Of a stretch of DNA of 64,000 nucleotides, positions 51,800 through 62,582 are shown in pieces. Where the stretch lies: NCBI GenBank assembly GCA_951828385.1, contig OX639973.1, forward strand, positions 4,393,200-4,457,199. Direction: 5' to 3'. The notes beneath the pieces are model-generated. The model was not told the DNA's origin, did not search any database, and saw only the letters and a program-made list of their open reading frames with translations. The stretch's first letter is position 1; each line of letters starts with the position of its first letter. The position numbers were made by a program, and so were the translations under genes. The stretch comes from an uncultured Poribacteria bacterium. Its GTDB lineage: Bacteria > Poribacteria > WGA-4E > WGA-3G.

Positions 51800-52588
51800 A
51801 TGAAACGGTTATTAAGTTCCGCAGTACTTATCACGTTGATGCTGATTACATCAGGATACGCAACAGTGGATCTTTTTGAAGGACTTGTTGTTTACTTCAC
51901 TTTTGACAATGTCAGTGGCAAGACGATTGCTGACGATTCCGGTAACGGACTTGACGCTGATATCATCGCTAATACCGAAATTGTGGATGGCAAATATGGG
52001 AAAGCGGTTCGGATTACAGCAGAAGGTCCGGATTGTGTGAACGTGCCAGCCGCTGAGGAACTGAAAATTGAGGGTGAAATCACCATGGCGGCTTGGATCT
52101 ATCGGGACGCTTGGGACAGAGATGCACAATGGTTCGATAAAAATTGCCATAACGGCGGTGAACATAGTTCTTACGGTATCGGCATTTTCGAGGATGGCGC
52201 GAATTTCAACATGTTTTTGGGCACAGGAAGCGGTAGACCTAGGTTGAACAAACCATACGCCCTGGCAGAAAAAACCTGGCATCACGTCGTTGGCACTTAT
52301 GATGGGGCAACCATGAAAATCTACGTTGATGGCGAAGTTGCAATTGAACAAGACCAAGCGTTTGACTTCAAAGGTACCAATGACCAAGACTTGCGGATTG
52401 GATGTTCCAAAGACCGTCCGAATTACACCTTTGAGAACGGCTCGATTGACGACGCAGCCGTCTGGCGGCGCGCACTCAGCCAAGAGGAAATCAAAGGAGT
52501 AATGAATGGGGGCATCACCGCAGTTTCGCCGCTTGATAAAGCCGCGACGACGTGGGGCAATATTAAGCGGAAGGCGTTTCAATTGTAA
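51800..52588 (+). CDS. Secreted LamG-domain protein, tandem copy 1
   Basis: A 262-residue LamG protein with a signal peptide (LSSAVLITLMLITSGYATVD) and one jelly-roll: LVVYFTFDNVSGKTIADDSG, NVPAAEELKIEGEITMAAWI, WHHVVGTYDGATMKIYVDGE and AAVWRRALSQEEIK. Two cysteines (EGPDCVNVP and WFDKNCHNGG, plus RIGCSKDR) may form disulfides outside the cell. The C-terminal tail reads SPLDKAATTWGNIKRK, the shared LamG tail of this genome. GGGAGGACAG precedes the ATG. The next gene is a close copy. Confidence 0.88.
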   Translation: MKRLLSSAVLITLMLITSGYATVDLFEGLVVYFTFDNVSGKTIADDSGNGLDADIIANTEIVDGKYGKAVRITAEGPDCVNVPAAEELKIEGEITMAAWIYRDAWDRDAQWFDKNCHNGGEHSSYGIGIFEDGANFNMFLGTGSGRPRLNKPYALAEKTWHHVVGTYDGATMKIYVDGEVAIEQDQAFDFKGTNDQDLRIGCSKDRPNYTFENGSIDDAAVWRRALSQEEIKGVMNGGITAVSPLDKAATTWGNIKRKAFQL

Positions 52589-52640
52589 AAGAGACACAGG
52601 TGCCGAAGGTATAGTTATTCGAGAGGGTAAAGAAAATATA

Positions 52641-52669
52641 TTGTATTCTTTTCAGTTTCGTTGTACACT
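52641..52669 (+). promoter_or_regulatory. Promoter for LamG gene at 52733
   Basis: TTGTAT (52641-52646), 17-bp spacer, TACACT (52664-52669); aligns with the promoter of the first tandem copy, as expected for a duplicated unit. Confidence 0.45.
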
Positions 52670-52732
52670 CTAATTGCTTCCAAACAAGTTTACATATTTG
52701 ATGTAAGAGAATCCCACAGGAGGGCGAACAGA

Positions 52733-53521
52733 ATGAAACAGTTATTGAGTTGCGTCACGCTCTTTGCGCTGATGCTGATTATAGCGGGATATGCCACAGC
52801 CGATCTCGCTGAAGGGCTTGTCGTTTACTTCACATTTGACAATGTGAAAGGGAAGACAGTTGTTGACGATTCCGGTAATGGGCTGGATGCCGATATCATT
52901 GCCAATACCGAAATTGTGGATGGCAAGTATGGGGATGCAATTCGGATTACAGCAGTGGGGGCTGATTGTGTAAACGTGCCAGCCGCTGATGAACTGAAAA
53001 TCACGGGTGAAATCACCATGGCGGCTTGGATCAACCAGGATTCTTGGGCGAATGATGCACAGTGGTTCGACAAAAACTGCCATAACGGTGGTGAGCATAC
53101 CTCCTACGGCATCGGTGCCTTTGGTGACGGTAAGAATTTTAATATGTTCCTGGGCACCGGCAACGCTAGACCGAGGTTGGAAAAACCGCATGCGCTGGAA
53201 ACGAAAACATGGCATCACGTCGTTGGAACCTACGATGGGGCAACGATGAAAATCTACGTTGATGGTGAAGTCGCAGCGGAGCAAGATCAAAAAATTGACT
53301 TCAAAGGCACTAATGACCAGGACTTGCGGATCGGATGTTCCAAGGACCGTCCGAATTATACCTTTGAGAACGGTTCTATTGACGAAGCTGCTGTCTGGCG
53401 ACGTGCGCTGAGTGAAGCTGAAATCCAAGAAATAGCAAATGAAGGATTCCTCGCAGTTTCACCGCTTGATAAAGTCGCAACAACTTGGGGTAGTATTAAG
53501 CGGAAAACTGGGACGTATTAA
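52733..53521 (+). CDS. Secreted LamG-domain protein, tandem copy 2
   Basis: A 262-residue paralogue of the preceding protein with the same signal peptide style (LALMLIIAGYATAD-like), LamG strands (LVVYFTFDNVKGKTVVDDSG, TMAAWINQDSW, TYDGATMKIYVDGE) and tail SPLDKVATTWGSIKRK. AGGAGGGCGAACAG lies before the ATG at 52733; the longer open frame to 52661 is not needed. Most differences are conservative, so both copies are under selection. The MITE and a hairpin terminator follow. Confidence 0.88.
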   Translation: MKQLLSCVTLFALMLIIAGYATADLAEGLVVYFTFDNVKGKTVVDDSGNGLDADIIANTEIVDGKYGDAIRITAVGADCVNVPAADELKITGEITMAAWINQDSWANDAQWFDKNCHNGGEHTSYGIGAFGDGKNFNMFLGTGNARPRLEKPHALETKTWHHVVGTYDGATMKIYVDGEVAAEQDQKIDFKGTNDQDLRIGCSKDRPNYTFENGSIDEAAVWRRALSEAEIQEIANEGFLAVSPLDKVATTWGSIKRKTGTY

Positions 53522-54829: not shown

Positions 54830-55972
54830 ATGAACGCTTTCTACGCCGTTAGTAACATCGGTGAACTCTATGTTCCCGTTGAATATCGAGATGCTGTCTT
54901 TGCGCGCGCACGCGTCAAGTTGTTCGCGCACCAGGAGTTGAGACATCTCAACCGGATCTTTACACACATTCGGCACGGTGGCGTTGCGGTTGTGGAGGGG
55001 CAGTGGGACCAAATTACCGCTGTTATGGACTATATCCAACGCCACAAGCAGGATTTAATCCAAGAAGCGTCTCATCGGAATTCTAAGCAGCGAGACCGGA
55101 GAGACTTGCGTGGAAAATCAGCAAGCCGTGCCTTAAAAGAAGCCTTAGAGCGATTGATGTGTTGGGCGGATGCTGATGGCATCTTGCAGGTTGACCCCGC
55201 GCCTGTCCTTCCGTATCTATTGGAATTGGCTGGCGAACCCGCGGCGGCAAATCAAGGCAAACCTTTTCTCCTTCCGCTCATAAAGATACAACAGATTCAA
55301 AGCGCGCTCGCCGAGACCTATCCTATTCGTGCGCTTGATGCTTCGCTTGTCGCTTCCGAAAACGTTCTCGCACCGCGTTCGCAAGAGACGGTTGCATGTT
55401 TTCAAGAGGCGTTACAGCACGTCCGCCGACCGGATTCGTCTACAACAACAGTAGTCGTTGCCGACATCGGGTGTGGCAGTGGGTGTTTAACCCTGTTAGC
55501 ACGACAGGAATTGGGTGAACAGACCGGGATATATGCATCTGACCTGCTCCCCGAAGCAATAGCGACGACGAAGTTGAACATCCAACGCCTCCTGCCAGAT
55601 TCACATGCTATAGAAGTTATGCCCGCCGGGGACCTTTTTGATCCGTTTGCTTCGCGTCAATTTGATGTCATTATCTTCAATGCGCCGTGGGTTGTTGCCC
55701 GCGTGCGCAACCGCGCCGAACTCGCCATCCACGATGAAAAACAGCAGACAGTCGAACGCTTTTTTGCACACGTCTCAAATTTCCTGAAACCTGATGGTAC
55801 GATTTTATTAGGATATGCAGATGCTTCCGGTCCTAAGGCGATTGAAAACCTTGAGGCAATAATTGCAGCAGCCGGTTTTAGGGAGGATGCACTCTTTAAA
55901 AGACGAGTGGCAACGCATCGGTCGAAACGGAAGTGGGAACAGATTCGGGTGTCCGTTTTACGTCGGAAGTAG
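54830..55972 (+). CDS. Class I methyltransferase, HemK/RlmG-like
   Basis: A 380-residue protein. The N-terminal 150 residues have no recognised domain. The C-terminal part is a class I methyltransferase: VADIGCGSGCLTLLA (motif I), GIYASDLLPEAI, and motif IV IIFNAPWVV instead of NPPY. NPPY-type motifs belong to enzymes that methylate glutamine or adenine nitrogens; the substitution NAPW is also seen in several small-molecule and rRNA enzymes, so the target is unsettled. No clear Shine-Dalgarno; the ATG follows the Gfo gene closely. Confidence 0.72.
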   Translation: MNAFYAVSNIGELYVPVEYRDAVFARARVKLFAHQELRHLNRIFTHIRHGGVAVVEGQWDQITAVMDYIQRHKQDLIQEASHRNSKQRDRRDLRGKSASRALKEALERLMCWADADGILQVDPAPVLPYLLELAGEPAAANQGKPFLLPLIKIQQIQSALAETYPIRALDASLVASENVLAPRSQETVACFQEALQHVRRPDSSTTTVVVADIGCGSGCLTLLARQELGEQTGIYASDLLPEAIATTKLNIQRLLPDSHAIEVMPAGDLFDPFASRQFDVIIFNAPWVVARVRNRAELAIHDEKQQTVERFFAHVSNFLKPDGTILLGYADASGPKAIENLEAIIAAAGFREDALFKRRVATHRSKRKWEQIRVSVLRRK

Positions 55973-56041
55973 AGGTAGCAAACTTCCCATTTGACTTTGT
56001 GGCAAATGGTTTTTATGCTTTGCCCAAATATTGCCTTTTGC

Positions 56042-56070
56042 TTGACAAGCAACCGGGAAAATGGTATGCT
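56042..56070 (+). promoter_or_regulatory. Promoter for the HEPN coiled-coil gene
   Basis: TTGACA (56042-56047), 17-bp spacer, TATGCT (56065-56070). With GTGGAGGTTGTAAAC just ahead of TTG at 56101 it supports that start and independent transcription. Confidence 0.7.
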
Positions 56071-56100
56071 GAGAAAAATCTATCTGTGGAGGTTGTAAAC

Positions 56101-58185
56101 TTGAGCAGAGCAAAAAAATACCCTAACCGAGATGCGCTCCGTCAAGCAAATGATATATACTTAGATACTATGCGCCTTTTTATTAGTCATTATTTGAAGC
56201 AGGTTCCGGGGGAAACAGTTGAAGATTTAATTGGGAGTGCATTGGCAGATGAGCAAGCAGACAAATTTTGGGAAAAATTGGATGAGGATAATGATATTGA
56301 ATCTGCAATTGACTTTAGTTATTTTCCACTAATCGTCAAAAAAAATTGGTTAATTATCCGAAATAGACGAAATTATGGTTTCGCGCAGCGATTCAATGAG
56401 GATATGACTGTCCAGAGTATGTTATGGCTGATAAAGGAAGGGCGGAATTCTTGTGAGCATCGCGGTAAAAAAGATTTAGACTCAGAATTTGTTCGGATGA
56501 ACTTGTTTCTCATTGCTGATGTGCTCGGTAAAATCAACAGACCGGACGAACAACGTGAGGTTGAAGTTATCCGAGATGAACTTTTTCCTGATACGGCGGA
56601 GCACCTCGCGGAGGCGGAGAAACACTTGAAAGATTTGGAATCAGAGAAATCGGAGAAGGAAAAACGCTTGGCAGATGTAGCGTCAGAAAAGAAGGAATAT
56701 GAAAAAGAAAACGCAGCACTGTCAAAACAGGTAGATGAGAAAGAGAACCAACGTAAAAAATTAGATAGACAACTCAAGAAAGCAAAAGCGGACAACGATA
56801 AATATAAGAAAGATATTGCTGGCAAGAAACAACGTTTAGAAGCATCCGAAGCAACACAAGCCGACTATAAAAACCGTCTTGAAACTACATCGAAAGATTT
56901 GGAGGACGCGAAAAAAGAATGGCAGGTGTGTGAGGATAATCTCAGAAGTACATCGGAGCGATTGGAAGAGGCTGTAGAAGAGTGGGTCACATGCGTGGAA
57001 CGCCTCACTGCTCTGCGAAAACTGTTCACGGTAGCAACAATCGGGAATCAGACAGTTCAAGTAATATACCCGCTTATTGAAACGGATTCTACTGTCCGAA
57101 TACTTGACCGACGCGGTGTGAACAAGAAAAATTACCTTTTAGAGTTGTTAGAACAGAAGCAGCCTACTCTCATCTATGTCCAAAGTGAGGAGATGGCTGA
57201 TCTGTTATTGGAACGTGTTGTTTCAGAGAAATCAGACGCTATCGAAAAGCATGGTGAGCATACTTCTGAGACAGAAGAGATGGAAATTTTGAAAAGACTT
57301 GAGAGTGGGGAGTTGGTTGCTGTTGTTTCAGATACTACATTCTCCACATTGACTTCGGCACATTGCGTTGAGCACTTTGTTTTCTGCCACCTTGTCCCGA
57401 GTTTGGATGAATTCTGCCAGCGGTGTCAACCTGCTTTTACGTCAGGAAAGAATGCGTATCTGCATCTCATTTACAATAAGGAACAAGATGTTGAAGGGTT
57501 AAACCAGTGGTTAACTCAAAAGTATCCCGATGCAGAGGCGTTAGGAGAGTTATACCGAGAATTGAAAAGGCTTGCAGAAACAGACGGTAATTTCATTAAA
57601 ACTGAGAGTGTTTACAACGAAAGTGTCTATAGCGAATTGGGTATGGCGAAGTTAGGGATTGAAACGGGGCTTGCTATTTTTGAGGAATTACAATTTCTTG
57701 AGCGAAATGAAAGAGGTGTGAAAGTTTTACCTGATCCAGAGAAGAGAGGTTTGGACGAGTCAGAGATTTATTGTGGTGGTGAGAAACTAAAACAGGGAAT
57801 AGCAGAGACTCAGGCATTTCAACTTAAGCAGCCGATTGAACAGATTTGGAAAAGGTTAGAAAAAAAAATGGACGTGGGCAGTGAGCAAGTATTATATGAA
57901 GGCGACATTGATAAGACGGACTTTAGTATTTCGGAAGCGGAAGAGGATGAGCAACCTACAAAGACTGTTGAAAATGATAGCGGAGCGGATGACGGAGATA
58001 CTGAAGCGAGTCAGGTATCCAAACCTGCACGTGCGAATGCTAAAGTGACTGAGGAACAAGTTAGGGAGATCCGATCCCGGAGCACAGCAGGTGAGTCAAA
58101 CAGTGAACTCGCAAAGGAATTTGACCTATCACCTACGGCTGTTCGGAATATCGTCCTGCGAAAAACGTGGAAGGACGTTGAATAG
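56101..58185 (+). CDS. HEPN / coiled-coil / helicase-lobe / HTH multidomain protein
   Basis: About 694 residues from a TTG (GGAGG 8 nt upstream). Residues ~10-160 look like the Swt1-type HEPN domain, with the RNase motif R-x4-H as RNSCEH (115-120). Residues ~165-320 form a highly charged coiled coil. Residues ~350-465 resemble the second RecA lobe of an SF2 helicase (TLIYVQSEEMADLLLERV, ELVAVVSDTTFSTLTSAHCV, FVFCHLVPSLDEFCQRC), but the first lobe with Walker A is absent and the arginine-finger motif is eroded. The C-terminal ~45 residues (VREIRSRSTAGESNSELAKE) are a helix-turn-helix. This combination suggests an RNA-cutting defence or stress protein; I know no named family with it. Confidence 0.65.
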   Translation: MSRAKKYPNRDALRQANDIYLDTMRLFISHYLKQVPGETVEDLIGSALADEQADKFWEKLDEDNDIESAIDFSYFPLIVKKNWLIIRNRRNYGFAQRFNEDMTVQSMLWLIKEGRNSCEHRGKKDLDSEFVRMNLFLIADVLGKINRPDEQREVEVIRDELFPDTAEHLAEAEKHLKDLESEKSEKEKRLADVASEKKEYEKENAALSKQVDEKENQRKKLDRQLKKAKADNDKYKKDIAGKKQRLEASEATQADYKNRLETTSKDLEDAKKEWQVCEDNLRSTSERLEEAVEEWVTCVERLTALRKLFTVATIGNQTVQVIYPLIETDSTVRILDRRGVNKKNYLLELLEQKQPTLIYVQSEEMADLLLERVVSEKSDAIEKHGEHTSETEEMEILKRLESGELVAVVSDTTFSTLTSAHCVEHFVFCHLVPSLDEFCQRCQPAFTSGKNAYLHLIYNKEQDVEGLNQWLTQKYPDAEALGELYRELKRLAETDGNFIKTESVYNESVYSELGMAKLGIETGLAIFEELQFLERNERGVKVLPDPEKRGLDESEIYCGGEKLKQGIAETQAFQLKQPIEQIWKRLEKKMDVGSEQVLYEGDIDKTDFSISEAEEDEQPTKTVENDSGADDGDTEASQVSKPARANAKVTEEQVREIRSRSTAGESNSELAKEFDLSPTAVRNIVLRKTWKDVE

Positions 58186-58486: not shown

Positions 58487-59056
58487 CTACGACTCGTCTG
58501 CATCGGTGGCTTCGGTTTCGCGTGCTTCGTCCCTCGCTTTCCGTCTGGCAAGCTCTGCGTCTATCTGCTCCTGCGTCCAAATCGCTAAACCGCCGGGGAC
58601 ATTGCATATTTGACCCGGGATCATCTCATTGAGATCCCCCGTCGGCATCCGCCCTGTGTCAATGAGATGCAGACGTGCTTTCTGGTATTGATAGGACTGG
58701 CATTCCACGGCTTTGATGATTGCCTTCTTCGATCGCGGGGTGCCATCTGATAGCAGGTCAAAAACGCGATCTGCGAGTGCCGCGACTTCAGCATCCGTCA
58801 TTTCTTCGGGTTCGGGTGCGGGCGGCTGCGACTTCTGCGGCTTCGGGGGCTTCTGTGACGTGCCTTTACCCGAATCCTGATTGCGGACGGGTTGATCGAG
58901 CCGTTCAGAGATGTCAGCGAGTTGGAATAGGATTTCGTTCACGGCGCGTTCTAAATTGGTGACCCGTGTTTCTAAGGGATCCACTTTTGGCGCGCTTGGA
59001 CTCCCGGAGAAGTCGCTCAGGGATCCTAACGCTTTCGATTGATTATGCTTCGGCAA
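58487..59056 (-). CDS. Small protein with coiled coil and winged-helix-like region
   Basis: A 189-residue protein from a TTG start (AGGA upstream). Residues 25-55 (DPLETRVTNLERAVNEIL) form a short coiled coil. A Pro/Lys/Gln-rich linker follows, and then MTDAEVAALADRVFDLLSDG and TPRSKKAIIKAVECQSYQYQ, which has the spacing of a winged helix-turn-helix. The acidic tail RKARDEARETEATDADES is low complexity. No family is recognised; it may be an accessory DNA-binding protein. It is downstream of the IS607-type relic on the same strand. Confidence 0.5.
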   Translation of the reverse strand: MPKHNQSKALGSLSDFSGSPSAPKVDPLETRVTNLERAVNEILFQLADISERLDQPVRNQDSGKGTSQKPPKPQKSQPPAPEPEEMTDAEVAALADRVFDLLSDGTPRSKKAIIKAVECQSYQYQKARLHLIDTGRMPTGDLNEMIPGQICNVPGGLAIWTQEQIDAELARRKARDEARETEATDADES

Positions 59057-59084
59057 TGTTCATCCTGTTCCTTTGAACCTGAGT

Positions 59085-59108
59085 ATTTACAGAAAAAACG
59101 CTGTAAAT
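59085..59108. terminator. Hairpin downstream of the second tnpB
   Basis: ATTTACAG (59085-59092), loop aaaaaacg, CTGTAAAT (59101-59108). Perfect 8-bp stem with the A/T-run in the loop, so not a classical terminator; may be the element's end structure. Confidence 0.35.
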
Positions 59109-59124
59109 CTCGGTTTGCATCTAC

Positions 59125-60312
59125 CTAAGTAGATGGAGAAACCGTCAAAGCACGCGCGATGTTCTTGATGAATATCCCACGTGCACCGTTCAAATCCCTA
59201 TCCATAGATTGACCTTCTGATGACTTGATGACTTTAGAACCGCCGAGGTTCGCGACGATTTCACCCGTCCAAGACACCGTTTTAGAAGTATACGCCTCAC
59301 ACACATCTATCACTCGCACACCATATTCTTTGGTTTTTTGTTTCAAGAAAACTTTGAAACGATAGTGGGAAAGCGTTAGCATTTGCCGAACGGACTTCTT
59401 TCGCAACTTCCTACCCCCGCGTTTTGTCATCCGTTTCGTCTCAAAAGTCGGGAGCAAAATAATATCAAAGTTTGTTACGAGGAAATGGGCGATCTTCTTG
59501 TGAAGTTCATCAATGAGATTACGGATTTTGACCTTGATTCTATTCGCAGCTTTCCGCAAAGCACGCCGTAGCGGGCGTTTCTCTTGCGTTGCGCGTGCGT
59601 AAAGGGTATCGCAGTGTTGACAAAGCCTTTGAATACGGTTGATACACTGCATACCTAACCAACCGAAGCAGTCTTCAGAGAAAAATGTCATAAAATCACG
59701 AACACCGGGATCAAGGGCTACTATTCTACCACTTGGTTCTCGCGTCTTTTTCTTCTCAATGTATGATACACAAAGAAAATACCTACCATTCTCACGTATC
59801 AGTTGAGAATCCTTAACTTCTGCATTCGTATCACGGTCTGATACCTTACCTGTTCCTTGAGGTTTGGCAGGTAAAGGTTCTGACATTTTCATATCGCCTA
59901 AAAATCTAACGTAAAAGCCATTCTTTTTCAGAGAGTCGGCACGCAAGTAAAGCGTCTGTCTCGGATGCTTTCTGGAGCGAAACTTGACGCTTTGAAACTT
60001 GCCTGTCTGCTTACATTTGATTTTGGCGTTTCCAACAGCTTGACAGGCATCCATGACCGCACCCGCCTTTATCTGACGCGGTGTTTCCTTATGCCATTCA
60101 GGGAGTTCGTCAAAAACTACAGGAACAAGTCCTTTGAAATTTGTGGGTGTATCCTCATCATTGAGCAAAGATATTGCCTTATTGTATGCATAGCGTGAAG
60201 TGCCAAACCACTTACTCAGAATCGCTTTTTGTTCCGCTGTCGGAAAGATTTCTATCTTCCTTGATTTGGTCACGGTATCGCCGGAGTCCGGACATTCTAC
60301 AGGAAAAGACAT
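59125..60312 (-). CDS. tnpB: IS607-type TnpB lacking the zinc ribbon
   Basis: A 395-residue TnpB from the ATG at 60312, which overlaps the serine-recombinase remnant. RuvC-I is IVALDPGVRDFMTF, RuvC-II is ILLPTFETKRMTKRGGRKLR, and RuvC-III is MDRDLNGARGIF, all with the acidic residues. Between RuvC-II and III the family has a zinc ribbon of two CxxC pairs (SKTCSWCG...KC.xCG). Here it reads SKTVSWTG...KSSEGQ, so all four cysteines are gone and one codon is missing, though the frame is open. The longer open frame to 60549 is out-of-frame recombinase sequence. Whether it can still cut DNA with a guide RNA is unknown. Confidence 0.8.
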   Translation of the reverse strand: MSFPVECPDSGDTVTKSRKIEIFPTAEQKAILSKWFGTSRYAYNKAISLLNDEDTPTNFKGLVPVVFDELPEWHKETPRQIKAGAVMDACQAVGNAKIKCKQTGKFQSVKFRSRKHPRQTLYLRADSLKKNGFYVRFLGDMKMSEPLPAKPQGTGKVSDRDTNAEVKDSQLIRENGRYFLCVSYIEKKKTREPSGRIVALDPGVRDFMTFFSEDCFGWLGMQCINRIQRLCQHCDTLYARATQEKRPLRRALRKAANRIKVKIRNLIDELHKKIAHFLVTNFDIILLPTFETKRMTKRGGRKLRKKSVRQMLTLSHYRFKVFLKQKTKEYGVRVIDVCEAYTSKTVSWTGEIVANLGGSKVIKSSEGQSMDRDLNGARGIFIKNIARALTVSPST

Positions 60313-60555
60313 GCAGAATTGCGAGGAGATCGGCAGTAAGTTCCTCTTCGGGGGAACCGTAAACAGTTTCGTTGAGAACCACGACTTCTCCACCGTTTTG
60401 TTCGACCAAGAACTGTATGACTTCGCCGCCGAAACGGGCGAGTCGATCCCGATGGGCAACAACAATACGGAGTTTATCGCCCCGCAAGATGCGTTCCAAT
60501 AAGGTTCTAAGCCCTTTCCGTTTGAAGTTGATATCGCTACCGAAGTCAATGAGTT
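60212..60555 (-). pseudogene. 3' part of an IS607 serine recombinase (tnpA)
   Basis: The readable homology begins about FGSDINFKRKGLRTLLERIL and continues GDKLRIVVAHRDRLARFGGE, the resolvase-domain signature of IS607 TnpA, then VVVLNETVYGSPEEELTADL. The N-terminal MerR-type helix-turn-helix and the catalytic serine are absent; a GTAG-footed hairpin sits at 60608-60630 where they should be. Its 3' end overlaps tnpB, as in intact IS607 elements. Confidence 0.7.
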
Positions 60556-60607
60556 TGATAAAAGTTGGACTTATGTAGCGTCCGATGTTAATTTGTGCTG
60601 TATACGC

Positions 60608-60630
60608 CACAAACTGACAGTTTGTGCTAC
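60608..60630. repeat. GTAG-footed REP-like hairpin in the tnpA relic
   Basis: CACAAACT-gac-AGTTTGTG followed by CTAC (60627-60630). Nearly the same as the first hairpin in the MITE. Confidence 0.6.
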
Positions 60631-61022
60631 GATTCACGGATACCCTGTGGTGCGGAAATAGAACCGATAACACATCCGAAATGATTAATCAAACTGGCAT
60701 TATATTAGAAAGTTTAACACACTTCAGGTCCCTTTGTCAACACTTTTTCTCGCCCGCAACGCAGCATTTCTCAAAGAAGCTGCCAGCGAATCCAACCCAA
60801 TCCACTCAACAACGGTCGCTGGGAAGTCAATAAACATCAGTCTTCCAGCTATCATAAGGTCATTTGATACTATTGTCGGGCACCCTACTTGTATGCTAAC
60901 CATGCTGAAGTTGCTGAAGCACTCAACGTTGATATAAGAACTTTCAAGAAGTACTGGCCTGAGAACAAACTGTTTCCAAGTCATTACACGCTTTTTACGA
61001 GATAAAATTTGTGCCTACACAT
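60631..61022. other. Region with no clear gene; possible HTH relic at 60868-61005 (+)
   Basis: A plus-strand stretch reads LYANHAEVAEALNVDIRTFK then KYWPENKLFPSH and a stop; HAEVAEALNVDIRTFKKYW has a helix-turn-helix look. It has no start codon of its own and a stop just upstream, so it is a relic at best. Nothing else could be supported here. Confidence 0.3.
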
Positions 61023-62582
61023 CTAATCCCGCGCAATGGATACCGACGTTCCATCTTGTAAAAGGTGTTGTGCATCTACAATCACCGATGTGCCTCTGCC
61101 GAGTTGTGAGGTAACCTCAATTTCACCGCTGTGAACGCCGCCAACATTTACCTGTTTCGTGCGTGCTACATTTCCCTCAACAACGAAAATAGTACCGCTG
61201 CCGTTCTGGATATTCAAGACCGAGCGCAACGGAAGCAGTTGGACGTTTTTCCGCTCTCCAGTTTTGATAGAAACTGTAATAGCCGTTCCGGGTTTGATGC
61301 TGTTTTTGGAATTCGGTACTGTCGCGTGGACAAGCACGGTGTTGTTGTCCGGGTTAACCGTTGGACTGATGAAAGCGACCGTGCCGGCAATATTCCGAAT
61401 ACCGGAATCCGTAGAAATCAAGACGAGATCGCCGTTATTAATACGGCGCGCGTCCCCAGTAGGCATATTCCAAACCGCTTTGAGCACATCTACTGCAACG
61501 ACTGTGAACACCGGTTTTCCTATAGGCGATGAGGCGAGTTGCGCATAATCTCCTGCCTTCAGGTGTTGTGTTGCAACAACCCCACTGATCGGGGACTTGA
61601 TAGTGGCATCACTTAACTGCTCCTGCGCTAACTTGAGTTGTTCCATAGCTTGTGTTACTGCGGCTTTAGCGATAGCAATCTCGTGTTCCCAGGACTTCGC
61701 TTCGACGAGTTTCTGTGCAGTGTTGAGGCTCGCTTGTGCTTGGTTAACCTTTGATTCCGCTGAAGCGATTTCACGTTCCCACCCGCGACTCTCCACGACC
61801 TTTTGAGCAACTGCTAATTCTGCTTTCGTCTTTTCCACGGACGGGTGTGTCGCGCCTTCCGTGAACTGTGCTGCAGTAACGACTGCCTCTTCATAACGGG
61901 TCTGTGAGACCTTAAAGCTGCGTTCTACCGCCTCAAAGTTACTATCACTGATATGTTGTTTCTCGTGAAGTGCCTTGTTCCGCTCGAACTCCAATTTATT
62001 TTTATCGAGTTCCACTTTCGCACGTTGTAATGCCTGTTCAGCATTTATTTTTGAGCGTTCAATTGTCGCCAGTGCTGCCTTATACGCGGATTCTGCCTGT
62101 GTGAGTTGATTACGGATGCGCATTTCAGCGAGGGATTTTGTCTCCACAAGTGTCGCTTGTGCTGCCATCAAGGTTTCTTGTGCAACCGCTAATTGTGATT
62201 CAACACGTGCCTGGGCACTGGCTTGCGTCGTTGTCAGTTGCGATTGTGCACTGCTTAACGCGGATTCTGCGCGTATGACAGCTAGCGCAGCTTCTTTTGT
62301 GCTGCTCTGTGCAAGCACATCGCCTTTCATCACACTTTGCCCGACTTGAGTCTCGATTGAAACAAGTTTACCCGAAACATTGGCAAATACTTTAACTTCG
62401 GCGTTGGGTTGTAGATGCCCGGTGTAATCTTTCGCAGAGACAAATGTCCCACGCCTTGGTGTTGTAACGGATACAGTTACGAGGGATGCTGTGTTTTGCG
62501 CCATCACGGTGCTAACACTGACGCAACAGATGATGACGAGAAGCCATAGCACCTGTGTTTTTAAAACATGTTTACTGCTCAT
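61023..62582 (-). CDS. HlyD/RND-type periplasmic adaptor protein
   Basis: A 519-residue membrane-fusion protein with a signal peptide (VLWLLVIICCVSVSTVMAQ). The lipoyl halves are GHLQPNAEVKVFANVSGKL and SPISGVVATQHLKAGDYAQL, around a very long alpha-helical hairpin rich in Ala/Gln (about 95-335). It ends with the beta-barrel and membrane-proximal domains (VNPDNNTVLVHATVPN, LLPLRSVLNIQNGSGTIFVV). It would link an inner-membrane ABC or RND pump to an outer-membrane channel; neither is in the window. The msrA stop overlaps its start by 11 bp. Confidence 0.9.
   Translation of the reverse strand: MSSKHVLKTQVLWLLVIICCVSVSTVMAQNTASLVTVSVTTPRRGTFVSAKDYTGHLQPNAEVKVFANVSGKLVSIETQVGQSVMKGDVLAQSSTKEAALAVIRAESALSSAQSQLTTTQASAQARVESQLAVAQETLMAAQATLVETKSLAEMRIRNQLTQAESAYKAALATIERSKINAEQALQRAKVELDKNKLEFERNKALHEKQHISDSNFEAVERSFKVSQTRYEEAVVTAAQFTEGATHPSVEKTKAELAVAQKVVESRGWEREIASAESKVNQAQASLNTAQKLVEAKSWEHEIAIAKAAVTQAMEQLKLAQEQLSDATIKSPISGVVATQHLKAGDYAQLASSPIGKPVFTVVAVDVLKAVWNMPTGDARRINNGDLVLISTDSGIRNIAGTVAFISPTVNPDNNTVLVHATVPNSKNSIKPGTAITVSIKTGERKNVQLLPLRSVLNIQNGSGTIFVVEGNVARTKQVNVGGVHSGEIEVTSQLGRGTSVIVDAQHLLQDGTSVSIARD

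Follow-up and report, generated by a model that had tools for sequence, protein, structure and literature searches.

A gene of sponge-symbiotic Poribacteria joining a probable Swt1-like HEPN domain and a coiled coil to the C-terminal domain of the lineage's own RecJ

In the Poribacteria, a phylum of sponge symbionts, we characterized a gene whose product joins an N-terminal HEPN domain and a long coiled coil to the whole C-terminal domain (CTD) of RecJ, and we are nearly certain of this anatomy and of the origin of the fusion from the RecJ of the same lineage. We mildly favour reading this single gene as encoding a HEPN ribonuclease effector whose RecJ-derived part serves as the gating sensor or bait, and whose activity would end in abortive infection or growth arrest. 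Effectors of this class are known; to our knowledge, what is new is a sensor derived from the RecJ of the host itself, together with the one exchangeable slot that it occupies.

Gene organization and expression signals

Within the window (i.e., the whole 64,000-nucleotide stretch that was analysed), the HEPN-RecJ gene and its product are organized as follows:

56042-56070, + strand: promoter, with -35 TTGACA (56042-56047), a 17-bp spacer and -10 TATGCT (56065-56070)
56088-56092, + strand: ribosome-binding site GGAGG, read from the sequence and kept in the upstream alignment
56101-58185, + strand: HEPN - coiled coil - RecJ-CTD - HTH gene, 694 aa, TTG start, stop at 58185
56113-56580, + strand: Swt1/Abi2-type HEPN domain, aa 5-160 (PF18731 in orthologues, AF2, VIA-align)
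56443-56460, + strand: R115-x4-H120 motif (RNSCEH), both residues invariant in relatives
56581-57045, + strand: coiled coil, aa 161-315 (AF2 helix, coiled-coil profile matches)
57064-57510, + strand: RecJ CTD, RecQ-like RecA lobe without Walker A, aa 322-470 (identity to own RecJ, Foldseek, RecQ profile, tree)
57511-57882, + strand: RecJ CTD, winged-helix-like part, ssDNA-exonuc_C, aa 471-594 (PF10141 E 1.2e-4, alignment A3)
58045-58182, + strand: C-terminal HTH-like module, aa 649-694 (weak Pfam HTH), one of several exchangeable tails

The open reading frame is real and likely starts at TTG 56101. The longest frame runs from a GTG at 55933 to 58185 and overlaps the upstream gene; as homology starts at residue 57 of this longer reading, the TTG located eight bases 3' of GGAGG is the probable start. 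The promoter assigned to the gene by the original prediction recurs in 21 of the 23 same-genus orthologues with its spacer kept at 17 bp; the promoter and ribosome-binding site are kept as a block in these orthologues, even in some with unrelated DNA farther upstream, and the same promoter is also present in two locus variants (G024 and G060). No second strong DNA match to the promoter was found in the genome, which indicates that it is not a high-copy repeat, and Rfam detected no RNA at the locus. The gene is under purifying selection, and dN/dS in the HEPN domain is about 0.13-0.17 among close same-type pairs.

The HEPN domain, the coiled coil and the C-terminal tail

The RNSCEH sequence had been read as the R-x4-H motif of a Swt1-like HEPN ribonuclease domain, a reading that the comparative data uphold: all 28 relatives, from two genera, retain both R115 and H120, in a domain displaying only 8 invariant columns overall and a median pairwise identity of 0.42, the R-to-H spacing being x4, or x5 in one HEPN type. 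The Swt1-like HEPN profile PF18731 gave no match to the window protein itself; it matched 6 of 21 orthologues at E values up to 0.1 (best 4.9e-5), as well as several paralogues. The domain was modelled by AF2 with a pLDDT of 93.8, and the five top VIA-align rows were all HEPN proteins, with PbAbiF first (Z 7.9), together with Csm6 and HepT toxins, at Z values (7.9 or below) within the chance range of helical bundles. A Foldseek search of the HEPN domain alone against the PDB returned nothing significant (best E 0.84). Given the modest Z values and the lack of a significant Foldseek match, the fold cannot by itself prove the assignment, which becomes strong when motif and profile are taken with it. 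In a previous survey, Swt1-like and Abi2/AbiF HEPNs were treated as one group, with many defence fusions listed (PMC3710099). The combination of a conserved housekeeping context and a variable RxxxxH, named beforehand as evidence against the original interpretation, was not what we found, since RxxxxH is invariant, even though the context is conserved and housekeeping-like.

The predicted long coiled coil corresponds to a single AF2 helix spanning residues 165-307. PADLOC matches to LmuB/JetC were set aside as they involved the coiled coil only, as were SMC-like NCBIfam matches; the PADLOC 2023 models produced no anti-phage system match for the protein beyond the coiled coil, and a full-profile sequence search of the PDB returned essentially nothing but coiled coils. 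The C-terminal HTH, also part of the original prediction, is a weaker call: Pfam matches are poor (HTH_7/HTH_24, E 0.16-0.24) and the AF2 pLDDT is under 50, while the tail does recur in relatives L023, L154, L147 and L149, with several relatives, two of the sister genus among them, carrying it.

The helicase-like lobe belongs to a RecJ C-terminal domain

The region following the coiled coil had been described as an orphan helicase lobe. The resemblance to a RecQ-like second lobe stands; the lobe is not an orphan, being part of a whole RecJ CTD (residues about 322-594) that comprises the RecQ-like lobe and a winged-helix-like part. The C-terminus of the RecJ encoded in the same genome is 39% identical to residues 370-649 of the longer reading (about 314-593 of the 694 aa), and the CTD alignment begins immediately past the OB fold of RecJ and extends to the end of that protein. 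This full-length homology is accompanied by the placement of the domain with RecJ in the CTD tree (100/99, see below). Pfam PF10141 (RecJ C-terminal) and PF00271 were both sub-threshold on the window protein; among the top Foldseek matches was Staphylococcus aureus RecJ 8y30 (E 6.5e-5 over 261 columns), along with RecQ second lobes, and a profile of the CTD matched RecQ as well.

As originally noted, inspection revealed no Walker A (G-x4-GK-[ST]) in the protein, and the Walker A lobe of SF2 helicases is absent, only the second lobe being matched, as in RecJ. The proposal that motif VI had eroded does not hold, given that the altered motif is already present in RecJ CTDs and is thus not specific to the fusion gene; likewise, a degenerate orphan helicase was ruled out, as the lobe aligns with RecJ CTDs in the same state. 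Judged from these alignments, the altered motif VI and the missing first lobe are properties of the RecJ CTD itself. No Pfam match was obtained in the protein to DHH or DHHA1, the catalytic domains of the RecJ exonuclease. Within the protein, the CTD lobe evolves most slowly (median identity 0.68). In Deinococcus radiodurans, the RecJ CTD aids DNA binding and contacts HerA (PMC4663267); that domain was described only as having no known homologues, and its equivalence to the CTD of the fusion is unproven. A DUF87 (HerA-like) ATPase is encoded in the same genome as the window.

Single origin and distribution of the fusion

In a CTD tree of 61 rows, the 28 fusions all grouped together as a single clade (100/100); its sister group was made up of the RecJ CTDs from the same Poribacteria family (96/84 for those RecJs, 100/99 for both together), and this joint group was nested within the RecJs of the order. 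The single clade and its sister position point to a fusion that arose once from the RecJ of the lineage, and one CTD duplication on the family stem would be the simplest reading. Among 85 genomes of the phylum, second CTD copies are confined to this family. The fusion was found in 25 of the 38 genomes of the window's genus (some copies being cut by contig ends or frame breaks), with 11 of the 38 having none, and in 6 of the 18 genomes of the sister genus, which discards a genus-restricted fusion.

A fixed locus with a fast-evolving gene

In both genera, the gene is located between the same methyltransferase gene (54830-55972 in the window) and HlyD adaptor gene (61023-62582). The median identity of the flanking proteins is 0.69-0.88, compared to 0.42 for the HEPN domain and 0.68 for the CTD lobe. 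Genomes without the gene display short gaps of 57-135 bp at the site (G012, G017 and G011), a relic of the C-terminal module (G020), or other genes. The locus is therefore fixed, and the gene evolves fast and is often lost.

The neighbours are mostly housekeeping or secreted-protein genes. A defence island, considered at the outset, was ruled out at this site in the genus, as insertions mainly consist of WD40/LamG secreted-protein genes and not of defence genes. Such insertions in the methyltransferase-HlyD gap span roughly 15-30 kb in several genomes, and mainly hold large genes for secreted proteins of the WD40-repeat and LamG kinds (L055-L059, L062-L064). In the window, two tandem and very similar LamG-domain secreted-protein genes lie at 51800-53521, copies of which adjoin the locus in most related genomes. 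The region 3' of the gene (58487-60673) is interrupted by TnpB and a serine resolvase (IS607-like) and by a small gene (58487-59056) with relatives elsewhere (L045, L063). In five genomes, the HEPN-RecJ gene is directly followed by a DUF6575 gene resembling PD-T4-10_B / PDC-M63B (L043:3923-4928, L053:3686-4826, L041:8095-8613, L046:5167-5625 and L047:8175-8621; another is located at L061:1790-3404), which in some genomes is preceded by a second small gene of unknown nature.

Exchange of modules and related paralogues

On a tree of the HEPN domains, the sequences fall into three types, each a clade of its own, with weak support for one of these clades; the distribution of the types requires 8 changes on the CTD tree versus 2 on the HEPN tree, and strongly supported CTD sister pairs carry differing HEPN types. 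Between L006 and L011, dS is 1.75 in the HEPN and 0.28 in the CTD lobe, and the reverse is seen between L011 and L023 (0.16 in the HEPN versus 0.89 in the CTD lobe); identity jumps near residues 300-330. Assembly chimeras are not the cause, given that both genomes of one such pair, L008-L021, consist of a single contig. As read from these sequences, HEPN-coil cassettes are swapped under the same CTD, and C-terminal modules are swapped too, the tails including the HTH, two unnamed modules and a PDC-S18-like one. In this exchange, the locus behaves as an immune gene would.

The RecJ CTD may itself be replaced. The slot is occupied in G024 by a HEPN-coil protein in which an HSDR_N-like (restriction-subunit) domain, matched sub-threshold at E 6.6e-4, takes the place of the RecJ CTD, followed by a homologue of the L013 tail. 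In G060, the protein encoded after the methyltransferase is 89% identical to that of G024 over 307 aligned residues and is cut by the contig end where the HSDR_N-like part starts; this slot probably holds an HSDR_N-like domain too.

Elsewhere in these genomes, the HEPN-coil is found in paralogues with other partners, namely Mrr_N, DUF4268 (PDC-S11), XRE HTH, PDC-S18 or DUF499/HmaC, and their promoter is often similar; a related HEPN is joined to S1 repeats. These partner modules are those of restriction and candidate defence systems. The members found in the same genus (L003, L127-L146) make up a combinatorial HEPN - coiled coil family with swapped C-terminal modules.

Proposed function and alternative explanations

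HEPN enzymes work as dimers, and the coiled coil would dimerise the protein, bringing two HEPN domains together as the RNase site. The RecJ CTD would be retained as a sensing or docking domain, either binding RecJ-CTD ligands (HerA-type partners, DNA ends or ssDNA) and firing when the DNA-end machinery is occupied or disturbed, or acting as a bait for phage proteins that attack RecJ, while the exchangeable C-terminal module, here the HTH, may anchor the protein to DNA. The protein would stay silent until a phage protein, a DNA end or a partner of RecJ engages its CTD; once triggered, the HEPN would cut cellular RNA and growth would stop, as abortive infection or an equivalent stress arrest. 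That the protein is an RNase effector, with a predicted activity, appears quite probable to us; a role in phage defence is somewhat less so, and triggering via the RecJ CTD is an evenly balanced proposition. The original view of an RNase effector with an abortive-infection-like role is supported by, or compatible with, these data, and a RecJ CTD captured from the host lineage, which replaces the dead helicase lobe as the putative sensor, provides a concrete hypothesis for what is sensed. The effector reading is supported by the invariant R115 and H120, the HEPN fold pointing towards Abi2/AbiF, the single-origin CTD, the module exchange and the HSDR_N-like swap, as well as by defence-associated modules in paralogues and the PD-T4-10_B-like gene just downstream in five loci. 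The low dN/dS of the HEPN domain, the better conserved flanks, the DNA and HerA contacts of the D. radiodurans RecJ CTD and the HerA-like ATPase of this genome also speak for it. Against defence count the housekeeping and secreted-protein neighbours, and the vertical retention at one locus, unusual for a defence gene. Against the HEPN part of the reading count the missing PF18731 match of the window protein, the lack of a significant Foldseek match and a VIA-align Z that helical bundles may attain by chance.

These last traits, namely a chromosomal position that is the same in two genera and is flanked by housekeeping genes, would suit a regulator of DNA damage or replication stress, in which the CTD brings the protein to DNA ends or stalled forks, and the HEPN trims RNA locally or slows translation during repair; the strong purifying selection and the activity of the RecJ CTD in repair (PMC4663267) also favour it. 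However, the frequent loss of the gene (11 of 38 genomes), the exchange of HEPN and C-terminal modules, the HSDR_N-like replacement of the CTD and the restriction-type paralogues suit an arms race better, and we regard this regulator as rather improbable. A narrower form of the preferred effector reading is a RecJ guard equipped with a decoy, where the CTD mimics RecJ and the binding of phage anti-RecJ proteins releases the HEPN. Being a copy of the RecJ CTD of its own host, the domain is what would be expected of a bait, and retrons Ec48/Se72, activated by phage inhibitors of RecBCD, offer a precedent (PMC12409349). Nonetheless, the slow evolution of the CTD lobe also suits the binding of a conserved host partner, and we regard the guard as doubtful. 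We know of no phage anti-RecJ protein for these hosts, a further point against it.

The location of DUF6575 genes directly 3' of the HEPN gene in five genomes could alternatively mark the gene as the toxin of a toxin-antitoxin pair, silenced by its downstream neighbour. This seems very unlikely, as the DUF6575 gene is missing from the window and from most orthologous loci, and stands alone at the site in G022, which lacks a HEPN-RecJ gene. Equally improbable is a non-enzymatic competitor of RecJ, with a HEPN that is merely structural or RNA-binding and a CTD competing for RecJ partners: the CTD is indeed complete and conserved, but all 28 sequences keep the R and H of the RNase motif despite strong HEPN divergence.

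Returning to the effector reading, we tentatively consider an integrated-decoy immune gene, with a sensor copied from the host's own RecJ and one chromosomal slot where cassettes are swapped, those of the effector being the HEPN-coil and those of the sensor either the RecJ CTD or an HSDR_N domain of restriction type, by analogy with integrated-domain exchange in plant NLRs. If the effector reading is correct, a domain of a host repair enzyme was recruited, in a single and traceable event, to trigger an RNase effector, the source protein, branch of origin and locus all being identified; the guard and decoy idea would become directly testable in bacteria, with a CTD sensing RecJ partners, DNA ends or phage anti-RecJ proteins; and there would be pointers to a RecJ-dependent phage-host conflict among sponge symbionts and to a family of mix-and-match HEPN-coil proteins.

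Relation to known systems

A full-text literature search for HEPN together with RecJ returned three incidental co-mentions and no described HEPN-RecJ fusion. The Swt1-like/Abi2-AbiF group (PF18731, PMC3710099) shares with our protein the HEPN type, the R-x4-H, the N-terminal position and the fusion to diverse nucleic-acid modules; ours differs by a partner taken from the host's own RecJ and by its fixed locus, and the survey of this group contains neither the term RecJ nor a RecJ fusion among those it reports. The CoCoNuT systems (PMC11090510) follow a similar logic of coiled coil and HEPN effector, but are multi-gene McrBC-type GTPase systems, whereas the fusion is a single gene without NTPase. 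HEPN-DUF499 proteins (Ava_2192 type; HmaC-like), with a copy in this genome (L004), have a related Swt1-like HEPN, and an AAA+ ATPase where the fusion has its coil and RecJ CTD. Retrons Ec48/Se72 guard RecBCD, and phage inhibitors of RecBCD activate them (PMC12409349); the proposed likeness would lie in watching a host DNA-end nuclease, and, unlike the fusion, they use an RT and msDNA.

With regard to RecJ itself (PF10141; S. aureus RecJ 8y30; D. radiodurans RecJ domain IV, of unproven homology), the full CTD is common to the fusion, which lacks DHH, DHHA1 and OB and carries instead the HEPN, the coil and exchangeable tails. A profile match links the CTD lobe of poribacterial RecJ to the second RecA lobe of RecQ (alignment A3), suggesting that RecJ acquired a RecQ-derived piece.
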